Part shown: positions 22,204 to 45,440 of the stretch, piece by piece
Layout of the letters: every line of letters begins with the position of its first letter
Position numbering within the stretch: the stretch's first letter is position 1
DNA from: Mesorhizobium sp. J8
GTDB taxonomy: Bacteria; Pseudomonadota; Alphaproteobacteria; Rhizobiales; Rhizobiaceae
Assembly (NCBI RefSeq): GCF_016591715.1
Contig: NZ_AP024109.1
Location: 5,642,001-5,706,000 of the forward strand
Reading direction: 5' to 3'
Length of the DNA: 64,000 nucleotides
Notes under the pieces: model-generated
Told to the model about the DNA's origin: nothing
Databases searched by the model: none
Seen by the model: the letters and a program-made list of their open reading frames with translations, nothing else
Position numbers and translations under genes: made by a program

Positions 22204-22592
22204 TTCAGGATATCGCCCCTGAAACCGTAGGGCAGCATGTCGTCCATGGTGACCGTCTCGGCCACGCCGGTGTTGTCGCACAGATAAAGCTTCGTCTCCG
22301 GCCGGCAAAACTCGGCCAGCCGCTGCCGGCAGCCGCCGCAAGGCGAGCATTTGGCCATGCGTTCGGCGACCACCGCGATCTCGACGATCCTGCCGCCACC
22401 ACCCATAATGTAATGGCCGAGCGCGGTCGTCTCGGCACACCATCCCTCGGGATAGGACGCCACCTCGATATTGGCGCCGGTGAAGACGCGCCCGTCCTCG
22501 GTGCGCAGCGCGGCGCCCACCGGGAACTTCGAATAGGGCGCATAGGCCTTGGCCATCGCCGTCTTCGCCGCCTCGAACAGATCATGCGACAT
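22200..22592 (-). CDS. cdd: Cytidine deaminase
   Basis: A 130-aa homotetrameric-type cytidine deaminase. Zinc motifs CAETTALGHY (catalytic Glu) and CSPCGGCRQRL are intact, with FPVGAALRTEDG at the substrate site. It converts cytidine to uridine. I chose ATG 22592 after GGGAGAGAAG; a further 10 residues upstream are possible but unlike the family. It sits 61 bases after the last transporter gene. Confidence 0.95.
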   Translation of the reverse strand: MSHDLFEAAKTAMAKAYAPYSKFPVGAALRTEDGRVFTGANIEVASYPEGWCAETTALGHYIMGGGGRIVEIAVVAERMAKCSPCGGCRQRLAEFCRPETKLYLCDNTGVAETVTMDDMLPYGFRGDILK

Positions 22593-22653
22593 CCGGTTCT
22601 TCTCTCCCACGATCTTGTTCAAATGCCGGTCGCCCCCGGACGAAAATCCCGTC

Positions 22654-23625
22654 TCAGCGTTCCTTCACATAGGGCACGCCGCCGGCCCGCGGCGGGATCG
22701 CCTTGCCGATGAAGCCGGCGAGCAGGATGACGGTGAGCACATAGGGCAGCGCCTGCATGAGTTGCGCCGGCACCTTGCCGACAAGAGGAAGCGGCGAACC
22801 CTGCAAGCGGATCGAGGCCGCGTCGAGGAAGCCGAACAGAAGGCAGGCGAACATGGCGTTGACCGGCTTCCATTTGGCGAAGATCAGCGCCGCCAGCGCG
22901 ATATAGCCCTTGCCCGCCGTCATATCCTTCACGAAGCCGCCATTCTGGACCATGGAAAGGTAGGCGCCGGCGACCCCGGTGAGGATGCCGGTGCAGATCA
23001 GCGCGCGGTAGCGCAGCCAGGCGACCGAGATGCCGGCGGTGTCGACGGCGGCGGGATTTTCGCCGACGGCGCGCATCCTCAGCCCAAAGCGGGTGCGAAA
23101 CAGCACCCACCAGGTGAACGGCACCATGGCGAAGGCGAAATAGACCAGGATCGAATGGCCGGAGATCAACTCGGCATAGATCGGGCCGATGAGCGGCACA
23201 TCCTTGACCGCATCGGCGCCGGGCCAGATGATCGCCTCGAACCGCTCGCCCGGCTGCAGCGCTGGCGTGCGCCCGCCCTGGCTGAACCAGGCCTGGCCGA
23301 GGATAATGGTCGATCCGGCGGCGATGAAATTGATCGCCACGCCGGAGACGATCTGGTTGCCGCGATGCGTGATCGAGGCGAAGCCGTGCACCAGCGCGAA
23401 GGCGACCGAGATCAGGACGGCCGTGCCGAGGCCGATCAGCGCCGAATGGAAGACGGCGGCGGCGGAAGCCCCGGCAAAGGCGCCGACCAGCATCTTGCCT
23501 TCGAGCCCGATGTCGAAGATGCCGGCCCGTTCCGAATAGAGACCCGCCAGGCAGGCGAGCAGCAACGGCACCGAAAGGCGGATCGTCGAATCGAGCACCT
23601 GGATGATTGCGTTGAAACTGTCCAT
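22654..23625 (-). CDS. Nucleoside ABC transporter permease 2 (BMP-type)
   Basis: A 323-aa polytopic membrane protein of the BPD_transp_2 class, with about nine hydrophobic segments. The LYSERAGIFDIGLEGKMLVG segment at the N-terminus and the later RAVGENPAAVDTAGI (coupling helix to the ATPase) are typical of permeases paired with basic-membrane-protein binding proteins. Follows the first permease with a one-base gap and precedes cdd, consistent with nucleoside import. Confidence 0.9.
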   Translation of the reverse strand: MDSFNAIIQVLDSTIRLSVPLLLACLAGLYSERAGIFDIGLEGKMLVGAFAGASAAAVFHSALIGLGTAVLISVAFALVHGFASITHRGNQIVSGVAINFIAAGSTIILGQAWFSQGGRTPALQPGERFEAIIWPGADAVKDVPLIGPIYAELISGHSILVYFAFAMVPFTWWVLFRTRFGLRMRAVGENPAAVDTAGISVAWLRYRALICTGILTGVAGAYLSMVQNGGFVKDMTAGKGYIALAALIFAKWKPVNAMFACLLFGFLDAASIRLQGSPLPLVGKVPAQLMQALPYVLTVILLAGFIGKAIPPRAGGVPYVKER

Positions 23626-23626
23626 C

Positions 23627-24766
23627 TCAGGCCCCCTTCCCGTTCACCGCCTGCATGCCGACCGACTTCGGACTGACCGAGGCGAACAGCGCCTGGATGT
23701 AAGGCCTGAACATGTGTTCCAGCGCGCCGGCGAAGAGGATGACGAGGCCCTGGATGATGACGATCATGTCGCGGCTGATCGCCGGCATCTCGAAGGCAAG
23801 CTCGGCGCCGCCCTGGTAGAGCATGCCGAACAGGATTGCCGCCAGCACGATGCCGACAGGATGCAGCCGGCCCATCAGTGCCACGGCGATGCCGACAAAG
23901 CCGGCGCCGGAGACGAAATCGATCGCGACATTGTGCTGGTCGCCCATCACCGGGTTGAGCGCCATCATGCCGGCCAGCGCGCCTGATATCATCATGGCGG
24001 TTATGATGATGCGCGTTTCCGAAATGCCGGCATAGCGCGCCGCCTTCGAGCTGTGGCCATAGGTGCGCATCTCGTAGCCCAGCCTGGTCCGCCAGATCAG
24101 CAGCCAGACCAGGAAGGCCATGACCAGCGCCAGCAGGAAGCAGATGTTGAGCGGAGCGGAGCGGATCTTGGCGCCGAACAGTTCGATCATCCAGTTGAGC
24201 TTCGGCAGTTCGGCGCCGGCGAGGAAATTGCGCGTCTGCGGCGCCTGCGAGCCGGCCGGCTTCAGCGGGCCGACCAGCAGATAGACCATCACCGAGGCCG
24301 CGATGAAGTTGAACATGATGGTGGTGATGACGATGTGCGAGCCGCGCTTGGCCTGCAGATAGGCCGGGATCAGGCCCCACGCCGCGCCGAACGCGGCAGC
24401 GGCCACGATCGCGATCGGAAAGATCACCCACCAGGGCAGCAGGCTGTCGAGGCTGAGGCACACGAGCGCGATGCCGAGGCCGCCTATATAGGCCTGGCCC
24501 TCGGTGCCGATGTTGAACAGGCTGCAATGCGCCGCCACCGCCACCGACAGCCCGGTGAAGATGAAGGTCGTGGCGTAGAAGAGCGTGAAGGCAATGCCGG
24601 TGCCCTTGCCGAAGGCGCCTTCGACCAGGATGACGGCGGCGCGGAACGGGTTTTCGCCGACCAGCATGACGACGAAGCCGGCGACGATGAAGGCGACCGA
24701 CAGGTTGATCAACGGAATCAACCCATAATCGGCCCAGGCCGGCAGCTTGGCGTAAGGCGTGCTCAT
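23627..24766 (-). CDS. Nucleoside ABC transporter permease 1 (BMP-type)
   Basis: A 379-aa polytopic permease of the same class. SLFNIGTEGQAYIGGLG is the conserved equivalent of the EGKM segment, and the EMRTYGHSSKAARYAGI loop is the ATPase coupling region. It has about nine to ten membrane segments. The ATG overlaps the ATPase gene's end by four bases (24763-24766), so translation is coupled. Confidence 0.9.
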   Translation of the reverse strand: MSTPYAKLPAWADYGLIPLINLSVAFIVAGFVVMLVGENPFRAAVILVEGAFGKGTGIAFTLFYATTFIFTGLSVAVAAHCSLFNIGTEGQAYIGGLGIALVCLSLDSLLPWWVIFPIAIVAAAAFGAAWGLIPAYLQAKRGSHIVITTIMFNFIAASVMVYLLVGPLKPAGSQAPQTRNFLAGAELPKLNWMIELFGAKIRSAPLNICFLLALVMAFLVWLLIWRTRLGYEMRTYGHSSKAARYAGISETRIIITAMMISGALAGMMALNPVMGDQHNVAIDFVSGAGFVGIAVALMGRLHPVGIVLAAILFGMLYQGGAELAFEMPAISRDMIVIIQGLVILFAGALEHMFRPYIQALFASVSPKSVGMQAVNGKGA

Positions 24767-26295
24767 TCGGCGGCCTCCTGGTGCTCGACACCGGCCATGA
24801 GCAGGCCAAGCTCGCCTTCGGTCGCGTCCGGGCCGCGCTCGCCGACGATACGGCCCGCGAACATCACCAGGATGCGGTCTGAGAGCGAGCGGATCTCGTC
24901 GAGCTCGACCGAGACCACCAGCACCGCCTTGCCCTGGTCGCGCATGGCGATCAGCCGCTTGTGGATGAATTCGATCGCGCCGACATCGACGCCGCGTGTC
25001 GGCTGGCCGACGATCAGCACGCCGGGATCCTGCTCCATCTCCCTGGCCAGCACGATCTTCTGCTGGTTGCCACCGGAGAAATTGGCCGTCTTCAGCCGCG
25101 GATTGCCGGGGCGGATGTCATATTTCTCGATCTTGTCCTTGGCGTCGGCCATGATGGCGTCGATGTCGAGGAACGGCCCTTTCAGATAGCGCTCGTCGTC
25201 ATGATAGCCGAGGATCGAATTCTCGTTCTCCTCGAAGGCGAGCACCAGCCCGACATGGTGGCGGTCCTCGGGCACATGGGCGAGCCCGCGGTCGCGCAAT
25301 TCGCCGGGATCGGCCTTGCCGGTGAGATCGATCGGCTTGCCCTCCAGCATCACCTCACCGGAGACCGCATGCCGGATGCCGGAGATCGCTTCGAGCAGTT
25401 CCGACTGTCCGTTGCCGGCAACGCCGGCGATGCCGACGATCTCGCCGCCGCGCACGTCGAAGGAGACATTGTCGACCATGGTGACGCCGCGCTGATCCTT
25501 CACCGTCAGGTTCCTGACCGAGAGCCTTATCGCGCCGGCTTCCGATTGGCCCTTCTCGACCCTGAGCAGCACGCGCCGGCCGACCATCAGCTCTGCCAGC
25601 TCGCCGACCGTGGTTTCTTTCGTCACCCGCGTCGCCACCATCGTGCCCTGGCGCATCACCGAAACCGTGTCGGTGATCGCCATGATCTCGCGCAGCTTGT
25701 GGGTGATGAGCACGATGGTTTTTCCTTGATCCTTCAATTGCTTGAGGATGCGGAAGAGGTGGTCGGCCTCGGCCGGCGTCAACACGCCCGTCGGCTCATC
25801 GAGGATCAGGATCTCGGCGCCGCGATAGAGTGCCTTGAGGATTTCGACACGCTGCTGCAGGCCGACCGGCAGCTCCTCGATGACGGCGTCGGGATCCACC
25901 TCGAGGCCGTATTCGCGCTCCAGCCGGTCGAGCTCCGAGCGCGCCTTGGCGATGCTGCTCTTCAGCAGCGCATCGTTCTCGGCGCCGAGGATGACGTTTT
26001 CCAGCACCGTGAAATTGTCGACCAGCATGAAATGCTGATGCACCATGCCGATGCCGAGCGCGATCGCGTCGTTGGAGGTGTTGATCGACACCGGCTTGCC
26101 GTCGACGCGGATCTCGCCGCTGTCGGCCTGGTAGAAGCCGTAGAGGATCGACATCAGCGTCGACTTGCCGGCGCCGTTCTCGCCGACAATGCCGTGGATG
26201 GTGCCGCGCGCGACTTCCAGGTTGATGTCGCGGTTGGCGCGCACGGCGCCAAAACTCTTGTTGATGCCTATGAGCTCGATTGCGGCTTGCGCCAT
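24763..26295 (-). CDS. Nucleoside ABC transporter ATP-binding protein
   Basis: A 510-aa double-ATPase like those of sugar/nucleoside importers. The first half has Walker A GENGAGKST, signature LPVGLQQRVEIL and Walker B LILDEPTGVL; the second half has a degenerate Walker A (GVAGNGQSE), signature SGGNQQKIVLAR and IVGQPTRGVDVG. The degenerate second site is normal for the family. First gene of the operon ATPase-permease-permease-cdd-pnp-deoA. The likely binding protein is the BMP gene at 27966, which is not contiguous. Confidence 0.93.
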   Translation of the reverse strand: MAQAAIELIGINKSFGAVRANRDINLEVARGTIHGIVGENGAGKSTLMSILYGFYQADSGEIRVDGKPVSINTSNDAIALGIGMVHQHFMLVDNFTVLENVILGAENDALLKSSIAKARSELDRLEREYGLEVDPDAVIEELPVGLQQRVEILKALYRGAEILILDEPTGVLTPAEADHLFRILKQLKDQGKTIVLITHKLREIMAITDTVSVMRQGTMVATRVTKETTVGELAELMVGRRVLLRVEKGQSEAGAIRLSVRNLTVKDQRGVTMVDNVSFDVRGGEIVGIAGVAGNGQSELLEAISGIRHAVSGEVMLEGKPIDLTGKADPGELRDRGLAHVPEDRHHVGLVLAFEENENSILGYHDDERYLKGPFLDIDAIMADAKDKIEKYDIRPGNPRLKTANFSGGNQQKIVLAREMEQDPGVLIVGQPTRGVDVGAIEFIHKRLIAMRDQGKAVLVVSVELDEIRSLSDRILVMFAGRIVGERGPDATEGELGLLMAGVEHQEAAE

Positions 26296-26753
26296 GCAGC
26301 CTGTCCCACTCGTTATTTTTTTATCGCTTGGTCAAAACGCCTAGCATGATGCCCCGCTTATGCCAATCGGCCGTTCACTCTCGACAAATCCCCGCGCCCT
26401 TGTCAATTTCGAACCTGAGCAGGTCCGCAAAAGTGTCCCACGGTTTTGCGATCGGAACCTGCGAGAACCAACAGAGCATAAGCAGATAATCGCGGGCATC
26501 CCGCGAATATCTGCCTAGAGCATGATCCCGAAAAGTGGAAACCGGTTTTCGGAGAAAGATCATGCTCCAATGAAGAGTTAGATCGTGACGGCGATTCAAC
26601 GAAACGCCATCACGATCTGGAGCAATTCCAGGAAAAGTGTGAGCGGTTTTCCGCCCGGAATTGCTAAAAGCAAGGAGATAGAGCATTTCACCGTTTCCGT
26701 GAAACGGTGAAATGCTTGATGAAGGCTTCACATTCGCAAGGGTTCGGTTTTGC
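26296..26753. other. Intergenic region upstream of the nucleoside transporter operon
   Basis: A 458-base gap between the divergent ATPase and slyX genes. The first 100 bases are relatively AT-rich and should hold the ATPase promoter, but I see no clear boxes. From 26516 to 26716 it is filled by a composite A+B+C palindromic repeat. No coding potential recognised. Confidence 0.6.
26516..26716. repeat. Composite RIME-like repeat A+B+C
   Basis: Type A hairpin (26516 to about 26620), type B (GAGCAATTCCAGGAAAAGTG to GGAATTGC, 26619-26665) and type C, where the arms 26682-26696 and 26702-26716 form a perfect 15-bp inverted repeat around CCGTG. The same A/B/C order occurs at 45169-45372. Confidence 0.85.
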
Positions 26754-26963
26754 ATGGCCATGCCTGACGATCGGCTGACGACGCTGGAAATCCGCGCCGC
26801 GGAGCAGGAAAAGACCATCGAGGAACTGTCCGGCCAGATCGCCGAGCAGTGGAAGGTGATCGAACGCATGGAGCGCAAGCTCGCCGTCCTGACGGACCGG
26901 TTCCTGGAGTTGGAAGAACAAACCGCTCCCGATGTTCCGGTGACCAAGCCGCCGCATTGGTGA
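26754..26963 (+). CDS. slyX: SlyX family protein
   Basis: A 69-aa coiled-coil protein: heptads from RLTTLEIRAAEQEKTIEEL through RMERKLAVLTDRFLELEE, then the family ending VTKPPHW. SlyX proteins are small, widespread and of unknown role. The start is ATG 26754 (MAMPDD) or the ATG at 26760; the frame extends back into the palindromic repeat, which is unlikely to be coding. It is followed 22 bases later by an anti-sigma-like gene. Confidence 0.88.
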   Translation: MAMPDDRLTTLEIRAAEQEKTIEELSGQIAEQWKVIERMERKLAVLTDRFLELEEQTAPDVPVTKPPHW

Positions 26964-26985
26964 GGCGCCATGGGGAAAGACGGCA

Positions 26986-27393
26986 ATGTCCAGTGAAAGC
27001 GACCGTGTCGCCAGAGCCGGCGACTATGTCTTTGGCCTGATGAACGACAGGGAACGCGCCCGCGCCGAGCGCGACCTTCAGATCGATCCCGCCTTTCGCG
27101 ACACGGTGCTGCGGCTGGCCGAACGCTTGCGCGCCTTCGATCCCGCGGGACCTGACGAGCGCGACAACCGCTGGGAGCTGGTCACGCAACGCCTTGCCGA
27201 ACTGCCGCAGATGCAGACGCGGCTGGCCGCCGTCGCCGATCCAGAGACGGAACCGTCGCCGCCGATGATCCACCGGCTCGAGCGCAAGCCCTACGGCGTC
27301 GGCCTGCATTCGCTTGGCGGCAGGCTGGGCTTAGTCATCGCGCTTGCCCTGCTGGCCGCCTTTGCGCTCGGCTATCTCGCCGGCACGCTATAA
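26986..27393 (+). CDS. Putative membrane protein, anti-sigma-like N-terminus
   Basis: A 135-aa protein. Residues about 8-45 (RAGDYVFGLMNDRERARAER and PAFRDTVLRLAERLR) resemble the N-terminal helix region of RskA/anti-sigma-K proteins, which hold an ECF sigma factor. A C-terminal membrane helix (LGLVIALALLAAFALGYLAG) anchors it with the N-terminus inside, but there is no periplasmic domain after the helix and no sigma gene beside it. ATG 26986 follows GGGGAAAG. The role is therefore open: a reduced anti-sigma factor or simply a membrane protein. Confidence 0.65.
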   Translation: MSSESDRVARAGDYVFGLMNDRERARAERDLQIDPAFRDTVLRLAERLRAFDPAGPDERDNRWELVTQRLAELPQMQTRLAAVADPETEPSPPMIHRLERKPYGVGLHSLGGRLGLVIALALLAAFALGYLAGTL

Positions 27394-27437
27394 AAGCAAT
27401 CCATAAAAGTGCTGGCGGTCTTCCGTCCGAAATTGCG

Positions 27438-27896
27438 TCAAAGCAGAGACTTCGACATCAGAAGCATCGGCGCGCCGTCCTGCTCGAAAGTCTCGACCGC
27501 CGACCATCCAAGCGCTTCGTAAAAGCCGCGCGCTTGCCAGGTGTAGAGGTGGAGCATGCCGATACCGGCCGACGCGGCGTGGGCCTCGACGGTTTTGACC
27601 AGTGCCGTGCCGACACCGCCGCCTCGATAGGTTTCCTCGACGACCAGACCGGCCAACCATGGCGTTAAATTGTGCGGCGAGTCGATCTCGTCGCGAACGA
27701 GCAGGCAGCTCCCGATCGGCCGGCCACGCTGGCGGGCGACGAAAGCCGCCTCGAAGCCATCGCCGGTGATCAGCCCGCGCAGTCCGGCCATGTCTTCGTC
27801 AAGCATCCGGCCCGTGCCCTCGAAGAAAGCTTTGACCCGAAGCCGCGCTATTTGTTCGATGTCGTCCTCGGCCATCGCTTCGATTATCGGCCTCAT
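27438..27896 (-). CDS. GNAT family N-acetyltransferase
   Basis: A 152-aa acetyltransferase with the GNAT fold. The acetyl-CoA binding motif A is seen as LVVEETYRGGGVGTALVKTVE, with the preceding strand LTPWLAGLVV, and motif B as LYTWQARGFYEALGWSAVE. The ATG at 27896 follows TTGGAG. It lies just below the terminator of the BMP gene, so it is probably its own transcript. Substrate unknown. Confidence 0.88.
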   Translation of the reverse strand: MRPIIEAMAEDDIEQIARLRVKAFFEGTGRMLDEDMAGLRGLITGDGFEAAFVARQRGRPIGSCLLVRDEIDSPHNLTPWLAGLVVEETYRGGGVGTALVKTVEAHAASAGIGMLHLYTWQARGFYEALGWSAVETFEQDGAPMLLMSKSLL

Positions 27897-27907
27897 CGCC
27901 GAGTCTC

Positions 27908-27941
27908 CAAAAAACGAAACCGCCGGGCCATAGCCCGGCGG
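27908..27941 (-). terminator. Rho-independent terminator of the BMP gene
   Basis: On the minus strand CCGCCGGGC, TATG loop region, GCCCGGCGG, then TTTCGTTTTTT. Lies 24 bases after the BMP stop codon. Confidence 0.9.
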
Positions 27942-27965
27942 CTCAAAGCTTGGTTCAACTGCCGA

Positions 27966-28955
27966 TCAATACGGGCAATTGTTATCGGCGGTGTAGTCGT
28001 GCACCTGCACCTTGCCGGCGATGATGTCGGCCTTGGCCTTTTCGACAGCCGCCTTCATCTCGTCGGTCACCAGCGCCTTGTTGTTGTCGTCCATGGCATA
28101 GTCGACGCCGCCTTCCTTGAGGCCGAGATTCTGGACGCCGCCCTTGAAGGTACCGTTCTTGCCGTCCATGAACGCGTTGTAGACGGCAACGTCGACGCGC
28201 TTCATCATCGAGGTCAGCACCTTGCCGGGCTGCAGGCCGTTCTGGTTGGAATCGACGCCGATGCCGAGCTTGCCGGCATCCGCCGCGGCCTGCAGCACGC
28301 CGACGCCGGTGCCGCCGGCGGCGGCATAGATCACGTCGGCGCCCTGGTCGATCTGCGTCTTGGCGATCTCGCCGCCCTTGGTCGGGTCGTTCCAGGCGGC
28401 CGGCGTGTCGCCGGTCATGTTCTGGATGACGTCGGTCGCGCCGGCCGACTTGGCGCCGCCGACATAGCCGCATTCGAACTTGCGGATCAGCGGGATGTCC
28501 ATACCGCCGACGAAGCCGACCTTCTTCGACTTCGACGCCATCGCCGCCAGGATGCCGACGAGATAGGAGCCTTCATTCTCCTTGAACACCAGCGAGCGGA
28601 CATTGGGCAGGTCGACGGCATCGTCGATGATGGCGAAATTCAGGTCGGGATAATCTTTCGCGACCGCTTTCAACGCGTCTTCCCAAGCAAAGCCCGCCAT
28701 GACGATCGGGTTGCGGCCATCCTCGGCGAAACGGCGCAACGCCTGCTCGCGCTGCGAGGCGTTGGAGACCTCGAATTCGACATAAGCCACGCCGGTTTCG
28801 GCCTTGAACTTCTCGGCGCCGTGATAGGCGGCTTCGTTGAAGGATTTGTCGAACTTGCCGCCGAGATCGTAGAGGATGGCCGGTTGGACATCCGCGGCGA
28901 AAGCCGGAAGAACCATTGCGGTTGCGGCCAGAAGGCCGAGAACGATACGTTTCAT
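27966..28955 (-). CDS. BMP family nucleoside-binding protein
   Basis: A 329-aa periplasmic binding protein of the basic membrane protein family. A Sec signal (MKRIVLGLLAAT, cleavage near AFAAD) is followed by LYDLGGKFDKSFNEAAYHGA, the characteristic N-terminal motif, and the later FVGGMDIPLIRKFECGYVGG and ADVIYAAAGGTGVGVLQAA. It is the probable substrate binder for the ABC system at 22654-26295, from which it is separated by a GNAT gene and two plus-strand genes. ATG 28955 was taken in preference to the start three codons upstream. Confidence 0.92.
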   Translation of the reverse strand: MKRIVLGLLAATAMVLPAFAADVQPAILYDLGGKFDKSFNEAAYHGAEKFKAETGVAYVEFEVSNASQREQALRRFAEDGRNPIVMAGFAWEDALKAVAKDYPDLNFAIIDDAVDLPNVRSLVFKENEGSYLVGILAAMASKSKKVGFVGGMDIPLIRKFECGYVGGAKSAGATDVIQNMTGDTPAAWNDPTKGGEIAKTQIDQGADVIYAAAGGTGVGVLQAAADAGKLGIGVDSNQNGLQPGKVLTSMMKRVDVAVYNAFMDGKNGTFKGGVQNLGLKEGGVDYAMDDNNKALVTDEMKAAVEKAKADIIAGKVQVHDYTADNNCPY

Positions 28956-29190
28956 GTGATCCACACCCTGTCGGTTATTTTCCGTTTGCGCCGCCCGCCG
29001 GCCCGGTTCTCCGGCAGGCCTGCGACGTCAGGCAGGAAGTGTTTTTCCCCTCCCGCTCGCGGTCAATCTGGCACGGCGCGAAACAAAATTCACGTGGAAT
29101 TTTGACCTGTTGGAAAAAGCGGTTACCGGCGGTTGGGCTCGGCGCCTTCGCCTCATACTCCCGTCTGTGATTGCGTCAAAACAAGAGCCT

Positions 29191-30755: not shown

Positions 30756-30845
30756 GGAGAGGTGGCCGAGTGGTTGAAGGCGCACGCCTGGAAAGTGTGT
30801 TTACGGGAAACCGTAACGCGGGTTCGAATCCCGCTCTCTCCGCCA
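30756..30845 (+). tRNA. tRNA-Ser (anticodon GGA)
   Basis: A 90-nt class II tRNA including an encoded CCA. Acceptor stem GGAGAGG pairs with TCTCTCC (last pair G-T); discriminator G; the loop CTGGAAA has anticodon GGA at 30790-30792; the long variable arm TTACGGGAAACCGTAA identifies serine; the T-arm GCGGGTTCGAATCCCGC is perfect. Confidence 0.97.
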
Positions 30846-31057: not shown

Positions 31058-32050
31058 TTATTGGGCAGGCAGTCGACGGAACGCGCCTGGCGGCCGGCCG
31101 ACAATTTTCGAGAAGGCCTTGTTGAAGTGCACCTGGTCGGCAAATCCGCATTCGGCGGCTATTTGCATGATGGGCATCGATGTATTCGCCAGCAGGTAGC
31201 GAGCGCGCTGGATACGGCTGTCCATCAAATATTGATACGGCGTCTTGCCGGTAGCCTTTTTGAAAAGGCGAGCGAAATGATCCGGCGAAAAACCGCTCCT
31301 TTCAGCCAAATCAGCCAAGGAAAGCTTCTGGCTCATTCTGGCTTCTATCACTTCGTGAACGGAGGCGAGCTGCTTACTATCAAATTCTCCGGTCGGATAT
31401 TCTGCCGTATTGGCCGGATGTAGATTGGAATACCTGCGCAGAATTCGGCCCGCCGCGACCCGCGCCAGATGCTCCACATAGGAGTACGGCCCCTCGGCGT
31501 CGAACTCCAGCGCCTCGCTGATCTCGGTGACCAACTGCTCAAGCAAGGGGTCGGTCAAGGCCAACCTGCTGAAGATTTCGATTGGCCGGGTTTCGCCAAG
31601 ATCGGCAGCGATTTCGGCCAGAAGGGTGGCGTGCAGATAAAGATGTGTCGTGTGGACGCACCTGTCCCATTTCAGCCGGATCGGCTGGCCGGGCGTCACG
31701 ATGTCCAAATGTCCGGGGCGGGTGTTCGCACGGTGCTCTTGCCCCTCGATGTTGGCGACGATTTTGGCGGAACCGGACCTCGTCAACCTGATGAGAAGGT
31801 GCGGGCTGGCAGGGAAAGTTGCGTCATTGGGATCTTCAATCTGCATCGAAAGATACACTTTTTCCCAATTGCGACCGGCGCTCGTCTGAAGGGTCCGGCA
31901 GGAAGCGAGCGCGCCAAAGCCGTGGATTTCCTTCACCGGAAACTCTTGGGGGGAGGCAGTTTCCGCCGCTTGGCGGGCGGATCGAGCCTCCGTGTGTACG
32001 CTCTCGTACCGAGATTGTACGCGCTCTGGCCAGCTTGTTCGGATGTTCAT
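31058..32050 (-). CDS. AraC family transcriptional regulator
   Basis: A 330-aa regulator. The C-terminal 100 residues hold two helix-turn-helix motifs: SLADLAERSGFSPDHFARLF with KKATGKTPYQYLM, then MPIMQIAAECGFADQVHFNK with FSKIVGRPPGAFRR. The N-terminal part (RTLQTSAGRNWEKVYLSMQI and beyond) resembles the AraC-binding-2 sensor domain, which responds to an unknown small molecule. Start ATG 32050 is tentative; the frame could extend to 32149. The gene is visibly less GC-rich than its surroundings, stands alone next to a tRNA, and has two perfect palindromes upstream, all suggesting acquisition. Confidence 0.87.
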   Translation of the reverse strand: MNIRTSWPERVQSRYESVHTEARSARQAAETASPQEFPVKEIHGFGALASCRTLQTSAGRNWEKVYLSMQIEDPNDATFPASPHLLIRLTRSGSAKIVANIEGQEHRANTRPGHLDIVTPGQPIRLKWDRCVHTTHLYLHATLLAEIAADLGETRPIEIFSRLALTDPLLEQLVTEISEALEFDAEGPYSYVEHLARVAAGRILRRYSNLHPANTAEYPTGEFDSKQLASVHEVIEARMSQKLSLADLAERSGFSPDHFARLFKKATGKTPYQYLMDSRIQRARYLLANTSMPIMQIAAECGFADQVHFNKAFSKIVGRPPGAFRRLPAQ

Positions 32051-32140
32051 CGCAACCACCCGATCGCTTCGCGTATACATCCGAAGCTTTGCTTGGATAC
32101 TTACGATTACTAGGAATAGAGCCGTTCGGCGGAGGACGGC

Positions 32141-32158
32141 ACCTGACAAAAGTCAGGT
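32141..32158. promoter_or_regulatory. Perfect palindrome ACCTGAC-AAAA-GTCAGGT
   Basis: Seven-base arms with a four-base centre. It is one of a pair spaced exactly 22 bp start to start, about two helical turns, 91-130 bases upstream of the AraC gene ATG at 32050. Could be an operator or, if transcribed, a hairpin. Confidence 0.6.
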
Positions 32159-32482: not shown

Positions 32483-32512
32483 CAAAAAAAGGCCGCCCGG
32501 AGGCGGCCTTTC
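32483..32512 (-). terminator. Rho-independent terminator of the giant gene
   Basis: On the minus strand AAAGGCCGCC, four-base loop, GGCGGCCTTT followed by TTTT. Begins about 23 bases after the stop codon. Confidence 0.88.
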
Positions 32513-32534: not shown

Positions 32535-35500
32535 TTATTTGACGTCCGTCTTCGCGGCCGCCTTCTTCATCGGCGTAGCGGCGGCTTCGAGCCCCTTTTC
32601 CTCGGCCATCAGTTCTTCCTTGGTCACCTTCTTGTCGGTGACGGAGATCTGACCGAGCAGGTGGTCGACCACCTTGTCCTCGAAGATCGACGCACGCAGC
32701 GTGCGCAGCGCCTCGGGATTGGAGCTGTAGAAGCCGAGCGCCGCCTGCTGTTGGTTGGCAGGGAGGCGACGCACCTGCTCGAGTACGCCTCGCTGCAGTT
32801 CCTCGTCGGAAACGGAGATGCCCTCCTTCTTGCCGATCTCGACGAGGATCAGGCCGAGGCGTATGCGACGTTCGGCAAGTCGCATGCTGTCGGCACGCGC
32901 TTTCTCCTCGGTCGTGCCCTCGTCGGCGAAGGTGCGCCCTGTCGCCTTGAGATCCCGGTTGACCTGCGCCCAGATCGTGTTGAACTCGGCCTCCACCAGC
33001 TTCGAGGGCACCTCGAATTGGTAGGAAGCGGCGAGTTGGTCAAGCAATTGCTGCTTGACCTTCTGGCGCGCTATCGAGCCGAACTGGTTCTCGATCTGGC
33101 TGCGCACGACTTCGCGCAGGCGCTCCAGCGAGTCCAGGCCGAGCGCCTTGGCGGTCGCGTCGTTGATCTCCAGCTTGCCGGGCTTCGCCACTTCCATGAC
33201 GGTGACGTCGAAGGTCGCTTGCTTACCGGCCAGACTGGCGATCTGGTAGTTCTCCGGGAAGGTGACGGTGATCTTCTTCTGATCGCCTGCCTTGGCGCCG
33301 ATCAGCTGGCCCTCGAAGCCCGGGATGAAATCCTGGGCGCCGAGCACCAGCGGCTGGTTGGCGCCAGTCCCGCCGGAAAAGGCTTCTTCGATCTTGCCGA
33401 CATAGTTGATCGTCACACGGTCGCCTTCGGCGGCCTTGCCGTCGGCAGGCTTGTAGGTGCGAGCCGCTTCGGCGACACGCTTGATCTGCTCATCGATCTC
33501 GGATGCCGGCACGTCATACACCGGGCGCGTTACCTTGATGTTGGCGAAGTCCTTGATGTCGATCGCCGGAACAATCTCGCGGTTCAATTGAGCCGAGCCG
33601 GTACCGGCCGCAAGGGTACTGCCGGCGGCGCCGCAATCCGCGTTGGCGCCGACGCTTCCGGCCGCGGCCTTGGAGGCACCACCAGCCGAACTGCATGCCG
33701 TGTTGGCAAGCTGTTCACCTGAGCCGGCGACAGCTTTGGCGACACCGTCAGTTGGATTGCTGGCCGCGTTGGCGAGCATGCCAGTCGAGCCGGCGCCGGC
33801 GCCAACGGCTGCCTTCTTGGAGGCTCCGCCAGCCGGATTGCCGTCAGCATAGGCAAGCAGGCCATTATAGGCGAGCAAGCCGCCTGAGCCGACTCCGACG
33901 CCTCCGTTCCCACCATTGGAGACGCCGGTTGCATTGGCAAACAGGCCGTTTGAGCCGGCACCGGCGCGATTGGCCATGCTGTTGAGAGCACCGCCAGCCA
34001 AATCGCTGGTCGCGTTGGCAAGCAGACCTTTCGAGTCGGCGCCGCTGCTGCCGGTTGCACCATTGGAGGCACCGCTGGCCGGATTGCCAGCCGCGTTGGC
34101 AAGCAGGCGATTTGAGCCGCTGCCGATGCCATCGTTCGGAGCACCTCCAGTCGCTTTGGCAAGCAGGGGAACTGAACCGGCAGCACCGGTCGCACCGTTG
34201 GAGGCCCCGCCAACCGGATCGCCAGCCGCGTTGGCAAGCAGGCGAGTTGAACGGGCACCGCCGGCCGCACCGTTGGGGATGCTGCTGGTCAGGTCAGCGT
34301 CGACGACGTATCCGCCAGGGCTGCGGCTGTCCGCGAGGACGACCAAACCGTCGAGCGAACTGCCGCAGTGTGGGCCGCCCTGAGCTGAACTGTTGCAATC
34401 GATGCTTCCCAGGACGCTCCCGATGATCCCGCCGCCAGTGCCGCCGCCACCGGTCCCACCGGTGCTGCCACCGGCAGTGCCGCCACTACCAGTGCCGCCT
34501 CCACCAGTGCCGCCTCCGCCAGTGCCGCCTCCGCCAGTGCTCCCGCCGAGGCCTCCGCCGATCGAGCCGATAATTCCGCCGACTATGCTGTTCGCGCTGC
34601 CGATCAAACCGTTCACGGCGCTGGCCAGTGCGCCGACGGCACCGCCGATCGAGCCGACCGCCCCATTTGCGGCATTGGTCAGCGAGCCGACCGTGCCATT
34701 AGCTGTGCTGCCCAGCGAGCCGACTGTGCCACCGAGCGAACCACTGACGCCACTTGCACCGCCGGTCGCGCCGTTCAGGGCATTGCCCAGCGAGCCAATC
34801 GCGCTGCCGAGCGTACCGCCGGCACCACCGGTACCACCAGTACCGCCGGCCGCGCCATTCAAGGCATTGCCCAGCGAACCAATCGCGCTGCCGAGCGTAC
34901 CGCCGGCACCACCGCCACCAGCGCCGCCGGCCGCGCCATTCAGGGCATTGCCAAGCGAACCAATCGCGCTGCCGAGCGTACCGCCGGCACCACCGGTACC
35001 ACCTGCACCGCCGGCCGAGCCGTTCAGGGCATTGCCAAGCGAACCAATCGCGCTGCCGAGCGTACCGCCGGCACCACCGGTACCACCTGCACCGCCGGCC
35101 GAGCCATTCAAGGCATTGCCAAGCGAACCAATCGCGCTGCCGAGCGTACCGCCGGAACCACCGGTACCACCTGCACCGCCGGCCGCGCCATTCAGGGCAT
35201 TGCCCAGCGAGCCAATCGCGCTGCCGAGCACACCGCCGTCACCACCAGTGCCACCAGCGCCACCGATCGCGCCGTTCAGGGCATTGGCGAGTGAGCCGAG
35301 CGTACCGCCGGCATTGCCAGCATCGCCCGTTGCGCCATTCAGGGCGCTGGCCAAGGCGCCAACGGCGCCGCCGAGCGAGCCGCCGATGCCACCGGTACCA
35401 CCGATCGCCCCATTCAAGGTATTGGCGAGTGAGCCGACCGCCCTATTCGCAGCGCCACCAAGCGAACCAACCGTTCCGCTGAGCGAGCCGCCAATGCCAC

Positions 35501-38500
35501 CGGCGCCATTCAAGGCATTGCCCAGGGCGCCGACCGCGTCACTGAGCGTACCTCCGGCACCGCCAGCTCCGCCGATCGCGCCGTTCAGAGCGCTGGCCAG
35601 CGAACCAACGGCGCCATCGGCAAGGCCACCCAGTGAGCCAACCGTGCCACCGAGCGAGCCGCCGATACCACCGGCGTCGCCGAGCGCGCCGTTAAGCGCG
35701 GTGCCCACAGCACCGACCACGCCGCCGAGCGTGCCTTCGGCACCGCCAGCGCTACCGACTGCACCATTTAGGGTGCTACCCAGGGCACCAACGGTACCGC
35801 CAAGCGAACCACCAACGCCACCGGCACCACCGACCGCACCGTTGAGCGCGTTACCCAGAGCGCCGACCGCGCCTCCGAGCGTACCCCCAGCACCTCCAGC
35901 TCCGCCGATCGCACCGTTTACGGCACTGGCCACCGAGCCAACCGCGCCATTGGCAGCGCCACCAAGGGCGCCAACCGCGCCGCCGAGCGTGCCACCGGCA
36001 TCACCGGCTCCGCCGACCGCGCCGTTCAGAGCATTGCCCAAGGCACCAACCGCGCCGCCAAGCGTACCTCCGGCACCGCCAGCTCCGCCGATCGCGCCGT
36101 TGAGCGCAGTGCCCACGGCACCGACCGCGTCACCAAGCGTACCGCTGACACCGCCGGCTCCGCCGACCGCGCCGTTGAGGGCATTACCCAGGGCACCAAC
36201 GGCACCGCCAAGCGTACCTCCGGCACCGCCAGCTCCGCCGATCGCGCCCTTGAGCGCAGTGCCCACGGCACCGACCGCGCCGCCAAGCGTACCGCCGACA
36301 CCACCAGCTCCGCCGACCGCGCCATTCACGGCGCCGGCCAGCGAGCCGATCGCGCCATTCGCGGCACCGCCGAGCGAGCCACCGACTCCACCGGCTCCGC
36401 CGAACGCGCCGTTTAGGGCATTACCCAGGGCGCCAACGGCACCACCGAGCGTGCCGCCGGCACCACCGGCACCGCCGACCGCACCATTCAGGGCGTTGCC
36501 CAGGGCACCAACAGCGCCGCCAAGCGTACCGCCGGCGCCGCCAGCTCCGCCAATCGCGCCATTCACGGCGCTACCCAAAGCGCCAACCGCGCCATTGGCA
36601 GCGCCACCAAGGGCGCCAACCGCGCCGCCGAGCGTACCTCCGGCACCGCCAGCTCCGCCGACCGCACCATTGACGGCGCCGGAGAGCGAGCCGATCGCGC
36701 CATTCGCGGCGCCGCCAAGCGAGCCGACCGTGCCGCCGATGCCACCCGCTCCGCCGACTGCACCGTTCAGCGCAGTACCCAGAGCGCCGACCGCGCCGCC
36801 GAGCGTACCTCCGGCACCGCCAGCTCCGCCGACCGCACCGTTCAGCGCAGTGCCCAGGGCACCAACAGCGCCGCCAAGCGTACCGCCGGCACCTCCGGCA
36901 CCGCCGATCGCGCCATTCACGGCGCTACCTAAAGCGCCAACCGCGCCATTGGCAGCGCCACCAAGGGCGCCAACAGCACCGCCGAGCGTACCTCCAGCAC
37001 CACCAGCACCACCGATCGCACCGTTGAGCGCGGTGCCCAGGGCACCAACGGCACCGCCAAGCGTACCGCCGGCACCACCAACTCCTCCGACCGCCCCATT
37101 CAGGGCGTTGCCAAGGGCGCCAACCGCGCCGCCGAGCGTACCTCCAGCACCACCAGCACCACCGATCGCACCGTTGAGCGCAGTGCCCACGGCACCGACC
37201 GCGCCACCAAGCGTACCGCTGGCACCGCCAGCTCCGCCGACCGCACCATTGACGGCGCTGGCGAGCGAGCCGATCGCGCCATTCGCGGCGCCGCCAAGCG
37301 AGCCGACCGTGCCGCCGATGCCACCCGCTCCGCCGACTGCACCGTTCAGCGCATTACCCAGAGCGCCGACCGCGCCGCCGAGCGTACCTCCGGCACCGCC
37401 AGCTCCGCCGATTGCACCATTCAGGGCATTGCCCAGGGCGCCAACGGCACCACCGAGCGTGCCACCAGCGCCGCCAGCTCCGCCAATCGCGCCATTCACG
37501 GCGCTACCCAAAGCGCCAACCGCGCCATTGGCAGCGCCACCAAGGGCGCCAACCGCGCCGCCGAGCGTGCCACCGGCATCACCGGCTCCGCCGACCGCGC
37601 CGTTCAGGGCATTACCCAAGGCACCAACCGCGCCGCCAAGCGTACCTCCGGCACCGCCAGCTCCGCCGATCGCGCCGTTGAGCGCAGTGCCCACGGCACC
37701 GACCGCGTCACCAAGCGTACCGCTGACACCGCCGGCTCCGCCGACCGCACCGTTGAGGGCATTACCCAGGGCACCAACGGCACCGCCAAGCATACCTCCG
37801 GCACCGCCGGCTCCGCCGATCGCGCCGTTGAGCGCAGTGCCCACGGCACCGACCGCACCACCGAGCGTGCCACCGGCGCCGCCAGCTCCGCCAATCGCGC
37901 CATTCACGGCGCCGGCCAGCGAGCCGATCGCGCCATTCGCGGCACCGCCAAGCGAGCCGACCCTGCCGCCGAGCGAGCCACCGATGCCACCGGCACCGCC
38001 GACCGCACCGTTGAGCGCAGTGCCCAGGGCACCAACAGCGCCGCCGAGCGAACCGCCGATGCCACCGGCACCGCCGACCGCGCCGTTCAGGGCACCACCC
38101 AGGGCGCCAACCGCGCCGCCGAGCGTACCTCCGGCACCGCCGGCGCCACCGACCGCACCGTTGAGCGCAGTGCCCAGGGCACCAACAGCGCCGCCAAGCG
38201 TACCGCCGACACCTCCGGCACCGCCGATCGCGCCATTCAGGGCACTACCCAGAGCGCCAACCGTGCCGCCGAGCGAGCCGCCGATGCCACCGGCACCGCC
38301 GACCGCGCCATTCACAGCGCTACCCAGAGCACCGACCGCGCCGCCAAGCGTCCCGCCGGCACCTCCGGCACCGCCGATCGCGCCATTCAGGGCACTACCC
38401 AAAGCGCCAACCGCGCCATTGGCAGCGCCACCAAGCGAACCAACCGCGCCGCCGAGCGTACCTCCAGCACCACCAGCTCCGCCGATCGCACCATTTACGG

Positions 38501-41500
38501 CGCCGGCCAGCGAGCTGATCGCACCATTGGCAGCGCCACCAAGCGAACCAACCGTGCCGCCGAGCGTGCCACCGATGCCACCAGCACCACCGACCGCGCC
38601 ATTCAGAGCGCTACCCAGAGCACCGACCGCGCCGCCAAGCGTCCCGCCGGCACCTCCGGCATCGCCGATCGCGCCATTCAGAGCGCTACCCAGAGCACCG
38701 ACCGCGCCGCCAAGCGTCCCGCCGGCACCTCCGGCACCGCCGATCGCGCCATTCAGGGCACTACCCAAAGCGCCAACCGCGCCATTGGCAGCGCCACCAA
38801 GCGAACCAACCGCGCCGCCGAGCGTGCCACCGGCACCACCGGCTCCGCCGATCGCGCCATTCAGGGCACTACCCAGAGCGCCGACCGTGCCGCCGAGCGA
38901 GCCACCGATGCCACCGGCACCCCCGATTGCTTCGTTAACGGCATTGCCCAGGGCACCGACCGCGCCACCGAGCGTACCTCCAGCACCACCAGCTCCGCCG
39001 ACCGCGCCATTCACGGCGCCGGCCAGCGAGCCGATCGCGCCATTCGCGGCACCGCCGAGCGAGCCACCGACTCCACCGGCACCACCGATTGCTCCGTTCA
39101 GGGCGCCACCCAGGGCACCAACGGCACCACCAAGCGTACCGCCAGCACCACCGGCACCACCGACTGCACCATTCACGGCACTGCTCAGGGCGCCAACCGC
39201 GCCGCCGAGCGTACCTCCAGCACCACCAGCTCCGCCAATCGCACCATTTACGGCGCCGGCCAGCGAGCCGATCGCACCATTGGCAGCGCCACCAAGCGAA
39301 CCAACCGTACCGCCGAGCGAGCCGCCGATGCCACCGGCACCGCCGACCGCGCCGTTAAGCGCACTGCTCAGGGCGCCAACCGCGCCGCCGAGCGTACCTC
39401 CAGCACCACCAGCTCCGCCAATCGCACCATTTACGGCGCCGGCCAGCGAGCCGATCGCACCATTGGCAGCGCCACCAAGCGAACCAACCGTACCGCCGAG
39501 CGAGCCGCCGATGCCACCGGCACCGCCGACCGCGCCGTTAAGCGCACTACTCAGGGCGCCAACCGCGCCGCCGAGCGTACCTCCAGCACCACCAGCTCCG
39601 CCGATCGCACCATTTACGGCGCCGGCCAGCGAGCCGATCGCACCATTGGCAGCGCCACCAAGCGAACCAACCGTGCCGCCGAGCGTGCCACCGATGCCAC
39701 CAGCACCGCCGATTGCTCCGTTAACGGCATTGCCCAGGGCACCGACCGCGCCGCCAAGCATACCTCCGGCACCGCCGGCGCCACCGACCGCACCGTTCAG
39801 CGCAGTGCCCAGAGCACCAACCGCGCCGCCAAGCGTACCGCCGACACCTCCGGCACCGCCGATCGCGCCATTCAGGGCACTACCCAAAGCGCCAACCGCG
39901 CCATTGGCAGCGCCACCAAGCGAACCAACCGCGCCGCCGAGCGTGCCACCGGCACCACCGGCTCCGCTGACCGCGCCGTTCAGAGCATCACCCAGGGCGC
40001 CAACCGCGCCGCCGAGCGTACCTCCAGCACCACCAGCTCCGCCGATCGCACCATTTACGGCGCCGGCCAGCGAGCCGACCGCACCATTCGCTGCACCACC
40101 AAGCGAACCAACCGTGCTACCGAGCGAGCCACCGATGCCACCAGCACCACCCACCGCGCCATTCAGCGCACTACTCAGGGCACCGACCGCGCCACCGAGC
40201 GTACCACCGACGCCGCCTGCTCCACCGACCGCACCGTTCAGCACATTACCCAGGGCACCAACGGCACCACCGAGCGTGCCACCGGCACCGCCAGCTCCGC
40301 CGATCGCGCCATCCAGGGCACTACCCAGAGCGCCGACCGTGCCGCCGAGCGAGCCACCGATGCCACCGGCACCGCCGATTGCTTCGTTAACGGCATTGCC
40401 CAGGGCACCGACCGCGCCACCGAGCGTACCTCCAGCACCACCAGCTCCGCCGACCGCGCCATTCACGGCGCCGGCCAGCGAGCCGATCGCGCCATTCGCG
40501 GCACCGCCGAGCGAGCCACCGACTCCACCGGCACCACCGATTGCTCCGTTCAGGGCGCCACCCAGAGCACCAACGGCACCACCAAGCGTACCGCCAGCAC
40601 CACCGGCACCACCGATTGCACCATTCACGGCACTGCTCAGGGCGCCAACCGCGCCACCGAGCGTGCCACCGGCACCGCCAGCTCCGCCGATCGCGCCATT
40701 CACGGCGCCGGCCAGCGAGCCGACCGCGCCATTGGCGGCACCGCCAAGCGAGCCGACCGTGCCACCGAGCGAGCCGCCGATGCCACCGGCTCCTCCGACC
40801 GCGCCATTCAGAGCGCTACCCAGAGCACCGACCGCGCCGCCGAGCGTACCGCCGGCACCTCCGGCACCGCCGATCGCGCCGTTGAGCGCAGTGCCCACGG
40901 TACCGACCGCGCCGCCAAGCGTACCGCTGACGCCGCCGGCTCCGCCGACCGCGCCATTCAGGGCACTACCCAGGGCGCCAACGGCACCACCGAGCGTGCC
41001 ACCGGCGCCGCCAGCTCCGCCAATCGCGCCATTCAGGGCGCTACCCAAAGCGCCAACCGCGCCATTGGCAGCGCCACCAAGCGAACCAACCGCGCCGCCG
41101 AGCGTACCTCCGGCACCGCCAGCTCCGCCGATCGCGCCGTTCACGGCGCTGGCCACCGAGCCGACCGCACCATTCGCTGCACCACCAAGCGAACCAACCG
41201 TGCTACCGAGCGAGCCACCGCCACCAGCACCACCCACCGCGCCATTCAGCGCATTACCCAGGGCACCAACGGCACCACCGAGCGTACCTCCGGCACCGCC
41301 AGCTCCGCCAATCGCGCCGTTCACGGCGCTCCCGAGTGAGCCGATCGTTCCACCGAGCGAACCACCGATGCCGCCGGCACCACCGATCACACCGTTGACG
41401 GCGCCGGCCAGCGAGCCGACCGTGCCACTGAGCGTACCAGTTGCAACACCGATTGGGCCGTTCACAGCGGCATCCAGAGTGCCCACCGCGCCGCCCACCG

Positions 41501-42170
41501 TCGAAACAACGCCGGCCGCTGACTTCCTCGCAGATTTGCCAACAGCATCCGCGCTCTTAAGCGCTGATTTGCCAAGGCTGGCCACTGATTTGCGCGCAGA
41601 CTTGCTGACAGCGCCAGCGGTCTTGCGGGCAGACTTTCCAAGGCCGGCTACAGTCTTACGCACAGGTTTGTGAATGTTGCGAACGGCCTTGCTAACGCCT
41701 TTTGTCACGCCGCTCACTGATTTGCCGACCGCACTTACGCCGTGATCACCCACTGCACTTACACCGCCAGCCGCTCCGCCGATTGCGCCGCCGAGGCCAC
41801 CCACAGCGCCGCCGACGGCACCACCGAGGCCGCCGACCGCGCCGCCAACGCCACCCACAGCTCCGCCGACCGCGCCGCCGAGGCCGCCGACTGCGCCGCC
41901 GACCGCACCACCAAGACCACCGACCGCGCCGCCGACTGCACCACCGACGCCACCGACCGCGCTGCCAACACCACCCACAGCTCCGCCGACCGCACCACCA
42001 AGGCCACCCACCGCGCCGCCGACTGCGCCGCCGAGGCCGCCTACTGCGCCGCCGACCGCACCACCAAGACCACCCAACCCGCCACCTGCCTGGGCTGTGA
42101 TAGTTGTCAGCAACGCAATTGACGCCGTGGTGGAAAGGAGGAAATGAGAACGCTTGTAAGTCTTGGACAT
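32535..42170 (-). CDS. Giant exported Gly-rich repeat protein fused to trigger factor PPIase and chaperone domains
   Basis: A 3211-aa frame without interruption. Order: signal peptide (residues 1 to about 28, ending TTITAQA); short [11 protein letters not shown] repeats to about 140; a basic segment (about 147-223) of GKSARKS-type repeats; some 80-90 unit-lengths of a 25-residue Gly/Ala repeat starting NGA(I/V)GGAGG (about 257-2514); a GGGGTGGGG hinge (about 2540-2570) with nearby cysteines; a second repeat type with LLANAAGxP (about 2637-2855); then from residue 2864 a trigger factor lacking its first 140 or so residues: [16 protein letters not shown]-type PPIase ([36 protein letters not shown]) and the whole C-terminal chaperone domain, ending in a Lys-rich tail. 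The ribosome-binding domain and its GFRxGxxP loop are absent. The ribosome site GGAG overlaps the stop of the preceding gene. Automated annotation may call it simply trigger factor. Confidence 0.85.
34630..41400. repeat. Coding array of 75-bp tandem repeats
   Basis: About 6.8 kb of degenerate 75-bp units (25 codons), with shorter inserted units of about 33-36 bp encoding [10 protein letters not shown]. Blocks of several units recur nearly unchanged (for example around 39230-39480 and 39410-39660), showing recent block duplication. Within the giant exported protein gene. Confidence 0.85.
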
Positions 42171-42179
42171 GGCACGCTC

Positions 42180-42758
42180 CTATTGGTTTCCTGTGCTGGT
42201 TTCTTGCAGTGACAACGGCGAGGCCGCAGCGGACGACCCGAGAAGCTGGTCGACCGCTTTGGCCTTGGAAAACTGGGAATCCGGCAAGCCCCGACGGGGA
42301 TGGCCAAGCCAAAGCTTGCCACCCTCGTCCCTCGGGACGAGTTCGATCGTCTCAGGCTCTTCGATGTTGAAAAGAGTCAGGATCCGGGTCTTCTTGCCAG
42401 GTTGCGGCTCGACGGCCGGATTCAGTCCGTCCCGTGAATGCCTGGCTGCGTGGCGCCGCGAGATCGCTGTAATCGGGGACGCATCTGACAGCGCGCTCAT
42501 TACAATGGAACACGTTGCATCACTTCCATTAGAATTAGCTGCGGCTAAAATTATTGCCGGCGAAAATGACGCGGCAGGCTTCGCATCCCCAGACAAAGTC
42601 CTGGAATTGATGCGATCGGCCATGTCCATTGCCTCCTGAGCAAGATTTCGAGCCAAGTAGAAGCGATCGCCGGCTACGGAGACCTTTGAAGACTTGTTCT
42701 CCAAGACATCGGCGGGCCGCCTGGAAACCGTTGCATCCAACAGTTTCCTGTAATCCAA
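42180..42758 (-). CDS. Hypothetical protein coupled to the giant gene
   Basis: A 192-aa frame whose TAG stop (42180-42182) is part of the TAGGAG ribosome site of the giant gene, so translation should be coupled. The start is uncertain (TTG at 42758; no ATG before about residue 43). No signal peptide or membrane helix. The sequence is Ser/Ala-rich with ordinary-looking stretches such as VAGDRFYLARNLAQEAMDMA and RILTLFNIEEPETIELVPRD; I recognise no domain. A short frame on the opposite strand is less protein-like. It may assist or regulate the giant protein; that is inference from position. Confidence 0.45.
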   Translation of the reverse strand: MDYRKLLDATVSRRPADVLENKSSKVSVAGDRFYLARNLAQEAMDMADRINSRTLSGDAKPAASFSPAIILAAANSNGSDATCSIVMSALSDASPITAISRRHAARHSRDGLNPAVEPQPGKKTRILTLFNIEEPETIELVPRDEGGKLWLGHPRRGLPDSQFSKAKAVDQLLGSSAAASPLSLQETSTGNQ

Positions 42759-45168: not shown

Positions 45169-45372
45169 TAAAGCATGTCTCCCGAAAGTGGGAACCGGTT
45201 TCGGCACAAAGACATGCGTAAAATCAAGAACCTAAAGCGCAGGGAGCGAATCTGAAAGATCGCGACGCGCTTTAGAGCAATTCCAGGAAAAGTGTGAGCG
45301 GTTTTCCGCCAGGAATTGCGTAAAAACAAGGAGATAGAGCATTTCACCGTTTCCGTGAAACGGTGAAATGCT
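45169..45372. repeat. Composite RIME-like repeat A'+B+C
   Basis: A diverged A module with arms AAGCATGTCTCCCGAAAG and AAAGACATGCG, then B from 45273 and C with the perfect arms 45338-45352 and 45358-45372. Ends about 70 bases before the nuoD start. Confidence 0.8.
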
Positions 45373-45440
45373 CAAGGGGTACGATCCGGCCGAACGGCGA
45401 CCCCGGTTTGCCTTCGATCCTCACTCTTGCGGAGGCCGTC

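Follow-up and report, generated by a model that had tools for sequence, protein, structure and literature searches.

A window of 64,000 nucleotides from Mesorhizobium sp. J8 (contig NZ_AP024109.1, positions 5,642,001 to 5,706,000) carries, on its minus strand, a giant fusion gene that joins the 3' part of a trigger factor (TF) gene to a long repeat-coding region. The gene occupies positions 32535..42170 of the window and is a single open frame of 3211 codons plus a stop (at 32535), with an ATG start preceded by an AGGAG ribosome-binding site (42177..42181) and a terminator-like hairpin on its 3' side (32488..32511, minus strand). The predicted protein opens with a putative signal peptide (residues 1-28; 42087..42170) whose cleavage motif, A-Q-A, was judged by eye. 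This is followed by a first Gly repeat of GGAVGG units (residues 29-138; 41757..42086), a basic segment rich in Lys and Arg (17.6%; residues 139-240; 41451..41756), the core Gly/Ala repeats with a period of about 25 amino acids or 75 nucleotides (residues 241-2540; 34551..41450), a GGGGT linker (residues 2541-2580; 34431..34550), a Cys-pair module reading IDC-x9-C and then SLDGL (residues 2581-2615; 34326..34430) and a second repeat region of the GLLANATG type (residues 2616-2863; 33582..34325). Between the signal peptide and the terminal TF part, which has no ribosome domain (residues 2864-3211; 32538..33581), lie Gly/Ala-rich repeats of about 2,500 residues in all and the short Cys-pair segment. 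An earlier note on this DNA had taken the last 348 codons to be a trigger factor, with a 2863-residue repeat protein bearing a signal peptide in place of the ribosome-binding domain, and the same architecture was read here.

The two retained domains of the TF part were identified with Pfam profiles. The FKBP-type peptidyl-prolyl isomerase (PPIase) domain (FKBP_C, residues 2912-2991; 33198..33437) scores 46.9 bits against a cut-off of 21.1, and the C-terminal chaperone domain (Trigger_C, residues 3014-3172; 32655..33131) scores 121 bits against a cut-off of 22.7. For Trigger_N, the last 36 profile columns alone match, at 16.3 bits and under the cut-off of 22.2, and the ribosome motif GFRxGxxP, which is present in the separate tig of the same genome, was not found in the fusion; the ribosome-binding domain has been lost, as proposed. 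The closest solved structure to the TF part is that of E. coli TF (1w26, residues 108-430), a structure match with 29% identity across 318 residues that supports a TF fold; SurA does not appear among the 50 structure matches listed. The Lys-rich tail described earlier is much shorter in the fusion than in tig.

A search of 146 Mesorhizobium genomes with the TF part found four in which a second TF copy sits in such a setting, namely J8 and three other species: M. loti UFLA 01-765 (labelled G080), Mesorhizobium sp. IRAMC:0171 (G095) and Mesorhizobium sp. 1M-11 (G110). Fifteen genomes of the genus had more than one TF match and all were re-searched. Four were the carriers. The two TF pieces of G124 match separate regions of the query and were counted as a single tig that is split, and the remaining ten genomes had a weak second match (E 3e-5 to 9e-4, frames of 155-233 amino acids, part of the PPIase domain only). 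The best match in G136 reached an E value of only 5.5e-6 and that in G013 was partial. Low-complexity repeats precede the TF part in frame in UFLA 01-765, 1M-11 and IRAMC:0171, and the fusion frame is open up to the contig end in 1M-11 (1871 amino acids) and IRAMC:0171 (1092 amino acids). The N-termini of these three fusions, searched for with that of J8 and then with that of UFLA 01-765, sit at the edges of other contigs; N- and C-terminal contigs were paired because both modules co-occur in the same genomes. A profile of the four N-termini matched the same four of the 146 genomes, plus a weak match in G035 (E 0.005).

Beyond the genus, Rhizobium sp. BK602 has a complete fusion of 3846 codons with the parts in the same order, well inside a 664-kb contig. 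This strain has its own tig and is alone among 148 genomes of its genus in having two TF matches at E 1e-60. In a draw of 394 genomes of the family, a five-row N-terminal profile matched only the two carriers in that draw. With TF as the query and a limit of E 1e-20, two matches were obtained only in these two carriers and in G493, a 69%-complete draft. A protein-database search with the J8 protein returned nothing at E 0.001 among candidates of 0.55-1.75 times 3211 amino acids (2379 and 7999 scored). The corresponding search with the IRAMC:0171 protein (8000 candidates scored) had a sole match, 'trigger factor [Brucella cytisi]', a protein of 1170 amino acids with repeats, the Cys pair and a TF without Trigger_N, whose annotated start falls inside the repeats. 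Plasmid records searched by tblastn gave 44 matches, all below 60% identity, and the 15 that were listed resemble ordinary tig by coverage and name. A DNA pattern was derived from a residue string common to the four Mesorhizobium fusions and present in no other of 65 loci compared. It matched 25 contigs in the genome collection. Four of these carry fusions (UFLA 01-765, IRAMC:0171, 1M-11 and BK602), another 20 show the ribosome motif of tig in the stretch read, and one, L087, is too short for a decision. Since exact residues are required, the pattern overlooks more divergent fusions, for example the one in B. cytisi.

An assembly error or frameshift at the junction between repeats and TF was considered and rejected, as the same join occurs in independent genomes; because these carry the same architecture, chance and misassembly can be excluded. 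In keeping with the earlier statement that the frame stays open, the TF frame is unbroken in four of the five genomes read (in 1M-11 and IRAMC:0171 up to the contig ends) and in the B. cytisi protein. In the fifth, UFLA 01-765, one frameshift on a draft contig (L045) splits the TF part into two frames. Both a real lesion and a sequencing error are possible there.

The J8 genome is a single 6.69-Mb contig in which a Trigger_C profile search gives two loci, the fusion and an intact, separate tig of 498 codons at 4.03 Mb; the fusion, at 3211 amino acids, dwarfs this complete TF of 498. The TF part alone is 71% identical to its own tig. With some linker included, the end of the fusion matches tig at 67% over 367 residues by BLASTP, and at 79% over 999 columns by BLASTN. 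The hairpin behind the fusion shares 27 of 28 bases with the stretch just behind the J8 tig. A consensus scan placed this hairpin on the plus strand only (1 found against 0.6 expected by chance), and the T run on the minus strand was read from the sequence. Most simply, the TF part would have originated by copying of the 3' portion of tig together with the hairpin. The second copy stands beside a complete tig in J8, 1M-11, IRAMC:0171, UFLA 01-765 and BK602.

A maximum-likelihood tree of 37 rows was built with 26 of the 146 genus tigs, one Rhizobium tig (that of BK602) and no Brucella tig. The six fusion TFs form one clade (100/100) inside the Mesorhizobium tigs (node 97/94), and the BK602 tig falls outside; trees with four or five fusions gave the same result. 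The fusion TF of BK602 is 67.6% identical to that of J8 versus 49.7% to its own tig. Because all fusion TFs form one clade nested in Mesorhizobium tigs, the fusion arose once, and we regard its architecture and single origin as nearly certain. Judged on these sequences, the best fit is a single origin in a Mesorhizobium lineage with later transfer to Rhizobium and Brucella, horizontal transfer having probably spread the fusion between genera. As the tree holds no Brucella tig, the direction of transfer to Brucella is presumptive, and several long end branches make the branching order inside the fusion clade unsure.

Selection on the fusion was estimated from the ratio of nonsynonymous to synonymous substitutions per site (dN/dS). 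Between 1M-11 and IRAMC:0171, the fusion TF has a dS of 0.43 (tig 0.50) and a dN/dS of 0.17 versus 0.03 for tig, and the stretch ahead of TF has a dN/dS of 0.35-0.47. Between J8 and UFLA 01-765, compared over 296 codons of the second UFLA 01-765 piece, the fusion TF has a dS of 0.44 (0.32 for tig) and a dN/dS of 0.34 by NG86 or 0.20 by YN00. By these values the frame is kept as a protein, under constraint several-fold looser than that on tig. An accidental fusion now decaying, and retained for its repeat part alone, would agree with the six-fold higher dN/dS relative to tig in one species pair, with the UFLA 01-765 frameshift and with the patchy distribution of the gene. Against this, dN/dS is still 0.17-0.34 at a dS of about 0.43, the TF frame is broken in only one of the five genomes read, and the whole fusion is present in other genera, which together make decay very improbable. 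The fusion, now in three genera, is maintained by purifying selection, and the earlier view that it is more than a product of decay is upheld.

The claim of an N-terminal export signal is supported in so far as an export-type N-terminus can be read from the sequence. The start of the J8 fusion protein is basic and hydrophobic and closes with AQA, and an export-type N-terminus of this kind, together with a start site with AGGAG 6-10 bases ahead of the ATG, is found in all five fusion starts examined. The Cys pair lies at the same place in all five carriers that have that part; the IRAMC:0171 contig does not reach it. TF is a cytosolic family and the cleavage sites were judged by eye, both of which would suit a signal peptide that is never used and a protein that stays in the cytosol as a scaffold or condensate bearing a TF module. 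We consider this improbable, given that the basic-hydrophobic N-terminus and start site recur in every start examined and the Cys pair in every carrier that could be tested. In 1M-11 and IRAMC:0171 a further low-complexity frame, with units like GVLGSLVGDH, lies upstream of the fusion start (L061 1652-2371 and L060 3-815, respectively).

The repeats vary from species to species. In J8 the core (residues 241-2540) has no proline and only 0.8% charged residues, and proline is absent from residues 240-2599 of the J8 fusion and from residues 1-2855 of the BK602 fusion, in which a Lys/Arg-rich segment similar to residues 139-240 was recognised by eye. The length of the open frame was rejected as evidence by itself, as the opposite strand is also open over the repeats; this antisense frame (34393-41673, plus strand, 2426 amino acids) is taken as an effect of repeat composition. 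The variation among species would suit a surface adhesin with the repeat as its stalk and the TF part as a tip that binds proteins. Pneumococcal TF located at the cell wall is reported to have a part in adhesion (PMC6414539). However, the three Pfam matches of the fusion include no surface anchor or autotransporter domain, and the carriers comprise a cave methylotroph and a legume symbiont, according to partial descriptions of them, and therefore have no obvious common host. An adhesin is accordingly unlikely, and in our judgement marginally more so than the periplasmic chaperone weighed below.

The PPIase pocket of E. coli TF includes F177, F198, Y221 and F233. F198 is supported as a pocket residue by PMC7804408. 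Equivalents of all four are kept in J8 and in UFLA 01-765, whose fusion has Met in place of I195. F177 is changed in the other four of the six carriers, and the B. cytisi protein is also changed at the Y221 and F168 positions. The earlier statement that the PPIase motifs are intact agrees with the four pocket residues of J8 and UFLA 01-765, and not with F177 of the other four, and the suggestion that the TF part isomerises the repeat to which it is attached finds no support in that form, given the proline-free stretches and the altered F177. The conserved function of the fusion is probably something other than PPIase catalysis.

The TF part might instead be a trans-acting periplasmic chaperone or PPIase like SurA or PpiD, serving envelope clients with the repeat only as a tether. 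SurA carries parvulin domains, unlike the FKBP domain of the fusion, and a parvulin domain was not found in the fusion by the Pfam scan, whose three matches include FKBP. PpiD likewise carries a parvulin domain, in place of which the fusion has FKBP and a Gly-rich giant (PMC2956729). The same paper gives the C-terminal domain of TF as structurally homologous to the SurA chaperone module, which, with the inferred envelope location, the fusion would have in common with SurA and PpiD (PMC2956729). The retained pocket of J8 and UFLA 01-765 and the equal conservation of the PPIase and C-terminal domains among fusions would also agree with such a role. Against it, F177 is altered in most carriers, and an occurrence in 4 of 146 and 1 of 148 genomes in two genera does not befit a housekeeping chaperone. 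We therefore consider this alternative unlikely; the SurA-like chaperone proposed earlier is plausible for the C-terminal module and for nothing beyond it.

The reading we favour is that of a secreted protein with silk-like repeats whose cap is a holdase domain derived from TF. The signal peptide would route the chain via Sec to the envelope, and the oxidising conditions there could let the Cys pair close. The nearly uncharged Gly/Ala core would then form a long silk-like stalk or matrix fibre, and the charged TF part at its end would be a holdase cap acting in cis, which either holds the sticky, proline-free core in solution or governs how this core assembles. Folded terminal domains act as caps in silk proteins, and spidroins resemble the fusion in joining a core of Gly/Ala repeats to a folded domain at the end, an analogy in which no homology is expected. 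The export, fibre and cap roles are what we infer from the sequence features, and the full mechanism is a tentative proposal that we rate slightly below an even chance.

Several observations weigh against parts of this proposal. All six carriers retain F198 and F233. Five fusions compared with one another have a mean identity of 0.624 in the PPIase domain versus 0.629 in the C-terminal domain, and the fusions keep 26 of 55 tig-invariant columns in the former and 47 of 109 in the latter. The PPIase domain is eroded no more than the rest, and the proposed loss of catalysis therefore rests on few residues. The second repeat of 1M-11 and IRAMC:0171 is proline-rich, unlike the core repeats of J8, and the frameshift in UFLA 01-765 has to be counted here as well. 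A structure model of the repeat (mean predicted local distance difference test score 54, predicted template modelling score 0.21) was too poor to interpret, and because of this the label 'silk-like' refers to composition alone. Lastly, TF paralogues of M. xanthus without an N domain refolded GAPDH and did not prevent its aggregation (PMC11559001), which speaks against a strong holdase.

By published description, TF is the only chaperone that associates with the ribosome in bacteria, and a single copy is the rule, in 97.44% of the TF-bearing genomes scanned (PMC11559001). Several TFs occur in 390 of 15,241 such genomes, and in 367 of these 390 one TF alone keeps the ribosome motif, a loss that the authors explain by extra complete copies being harmful (PMC11559001). 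The fusion obeys this rule of one ribosome-motif TF per genome. It shares FKBP and C-terminal chaperone domains with tig (e.g. 1w26), whereas tig has the ribosome-binding domain and motif that the fusion lacks, and the fusion is attached to a giant repeat protein with a putative signal peptide. The N-terminally deficient TF paralogues of Wan et al. 2024 are, like the fusion, extra copies beside a complete tig and without the ribosome motif; they are reported as shorter than complete TF, whereas the fusion has about 2,860 residues and a putative signal peptide replacing the N domain (PMC11559001). The main text of that paper contains neither 'signal peptide' nor 'Rhizobi' (0 occurrences each). 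Additional TFs that lack the N domain are thus already known, and the fusion differs from them in its giant size and its export-type N-terminus. Plant Tig2, a chloroplast protein, is said to keep the ribosome-binding part, a truncation opposite to that of the fusion. It is referred to as a truncated TF (PMC11731035). No exported giant TF fusion turned up in a literature search judged by titles and the starts of abstracts. To this extent the earlier remark that no such architecture had been described is sustained; it fails in that N-domain-less TF duplicates have been described (PMC11559001) and a relative is deposited in NCBI as 'trigger factor [Brucella cytisi]'.

Beside the fusion lies a gene for an AraC-family regulator (31058..32149, minus strand). 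In UFLA 01-765 a homologue with 61% identity lies upstream of the fusion start (L058 1935-2822), and the two regulators stand on opposite sides of the fusion. AraC as a fixed neighbour was rejected: none is present at BK602, at the IRAMC:0171 stretch or at two N-terminal stretches, and the 1M-11 stretch has only matches of 32-35%. A tRNA-Ser(GGA) gene (30756-30845, plus strand) lies about 1.7 kb from the 3' end of the fusion, and a gene for a NuoD-type NADH-quinone oxidoreductase subunit D is also nearby (45363-46631, plus strand). Farther away, at 20084-28964, a purine nucleoside phosphorylase, a thymidine phosphorylase, an ATP-binding cassette transporter and a PnrA-like binding protein are clustered; the permeases and ATPase of the transporter are nearest to B6 transporter models, under the cut-off, and the cluster looks like one for nucleoside uptake and salvage.

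The fusion is a TF duplicate that has no ribosome domain, carries an export-type N-terminus and is joined to one giant candidate client, and its evolutionary record is unusually clear. More tentatively than the mechanism itself, we suggest that it may represent an extracytoplasmic TF, in which the cradle of a ribosome chaperone now serves a secreted silk-like giant as an in-built cap for assembly, with the whole gene spreading horizontally among rhizobia and their relatives. It would offer a natural test of whether a TF cradle can work in cis and away from the ribosome, and of how secreted proteins rich in Gly stay soluble.
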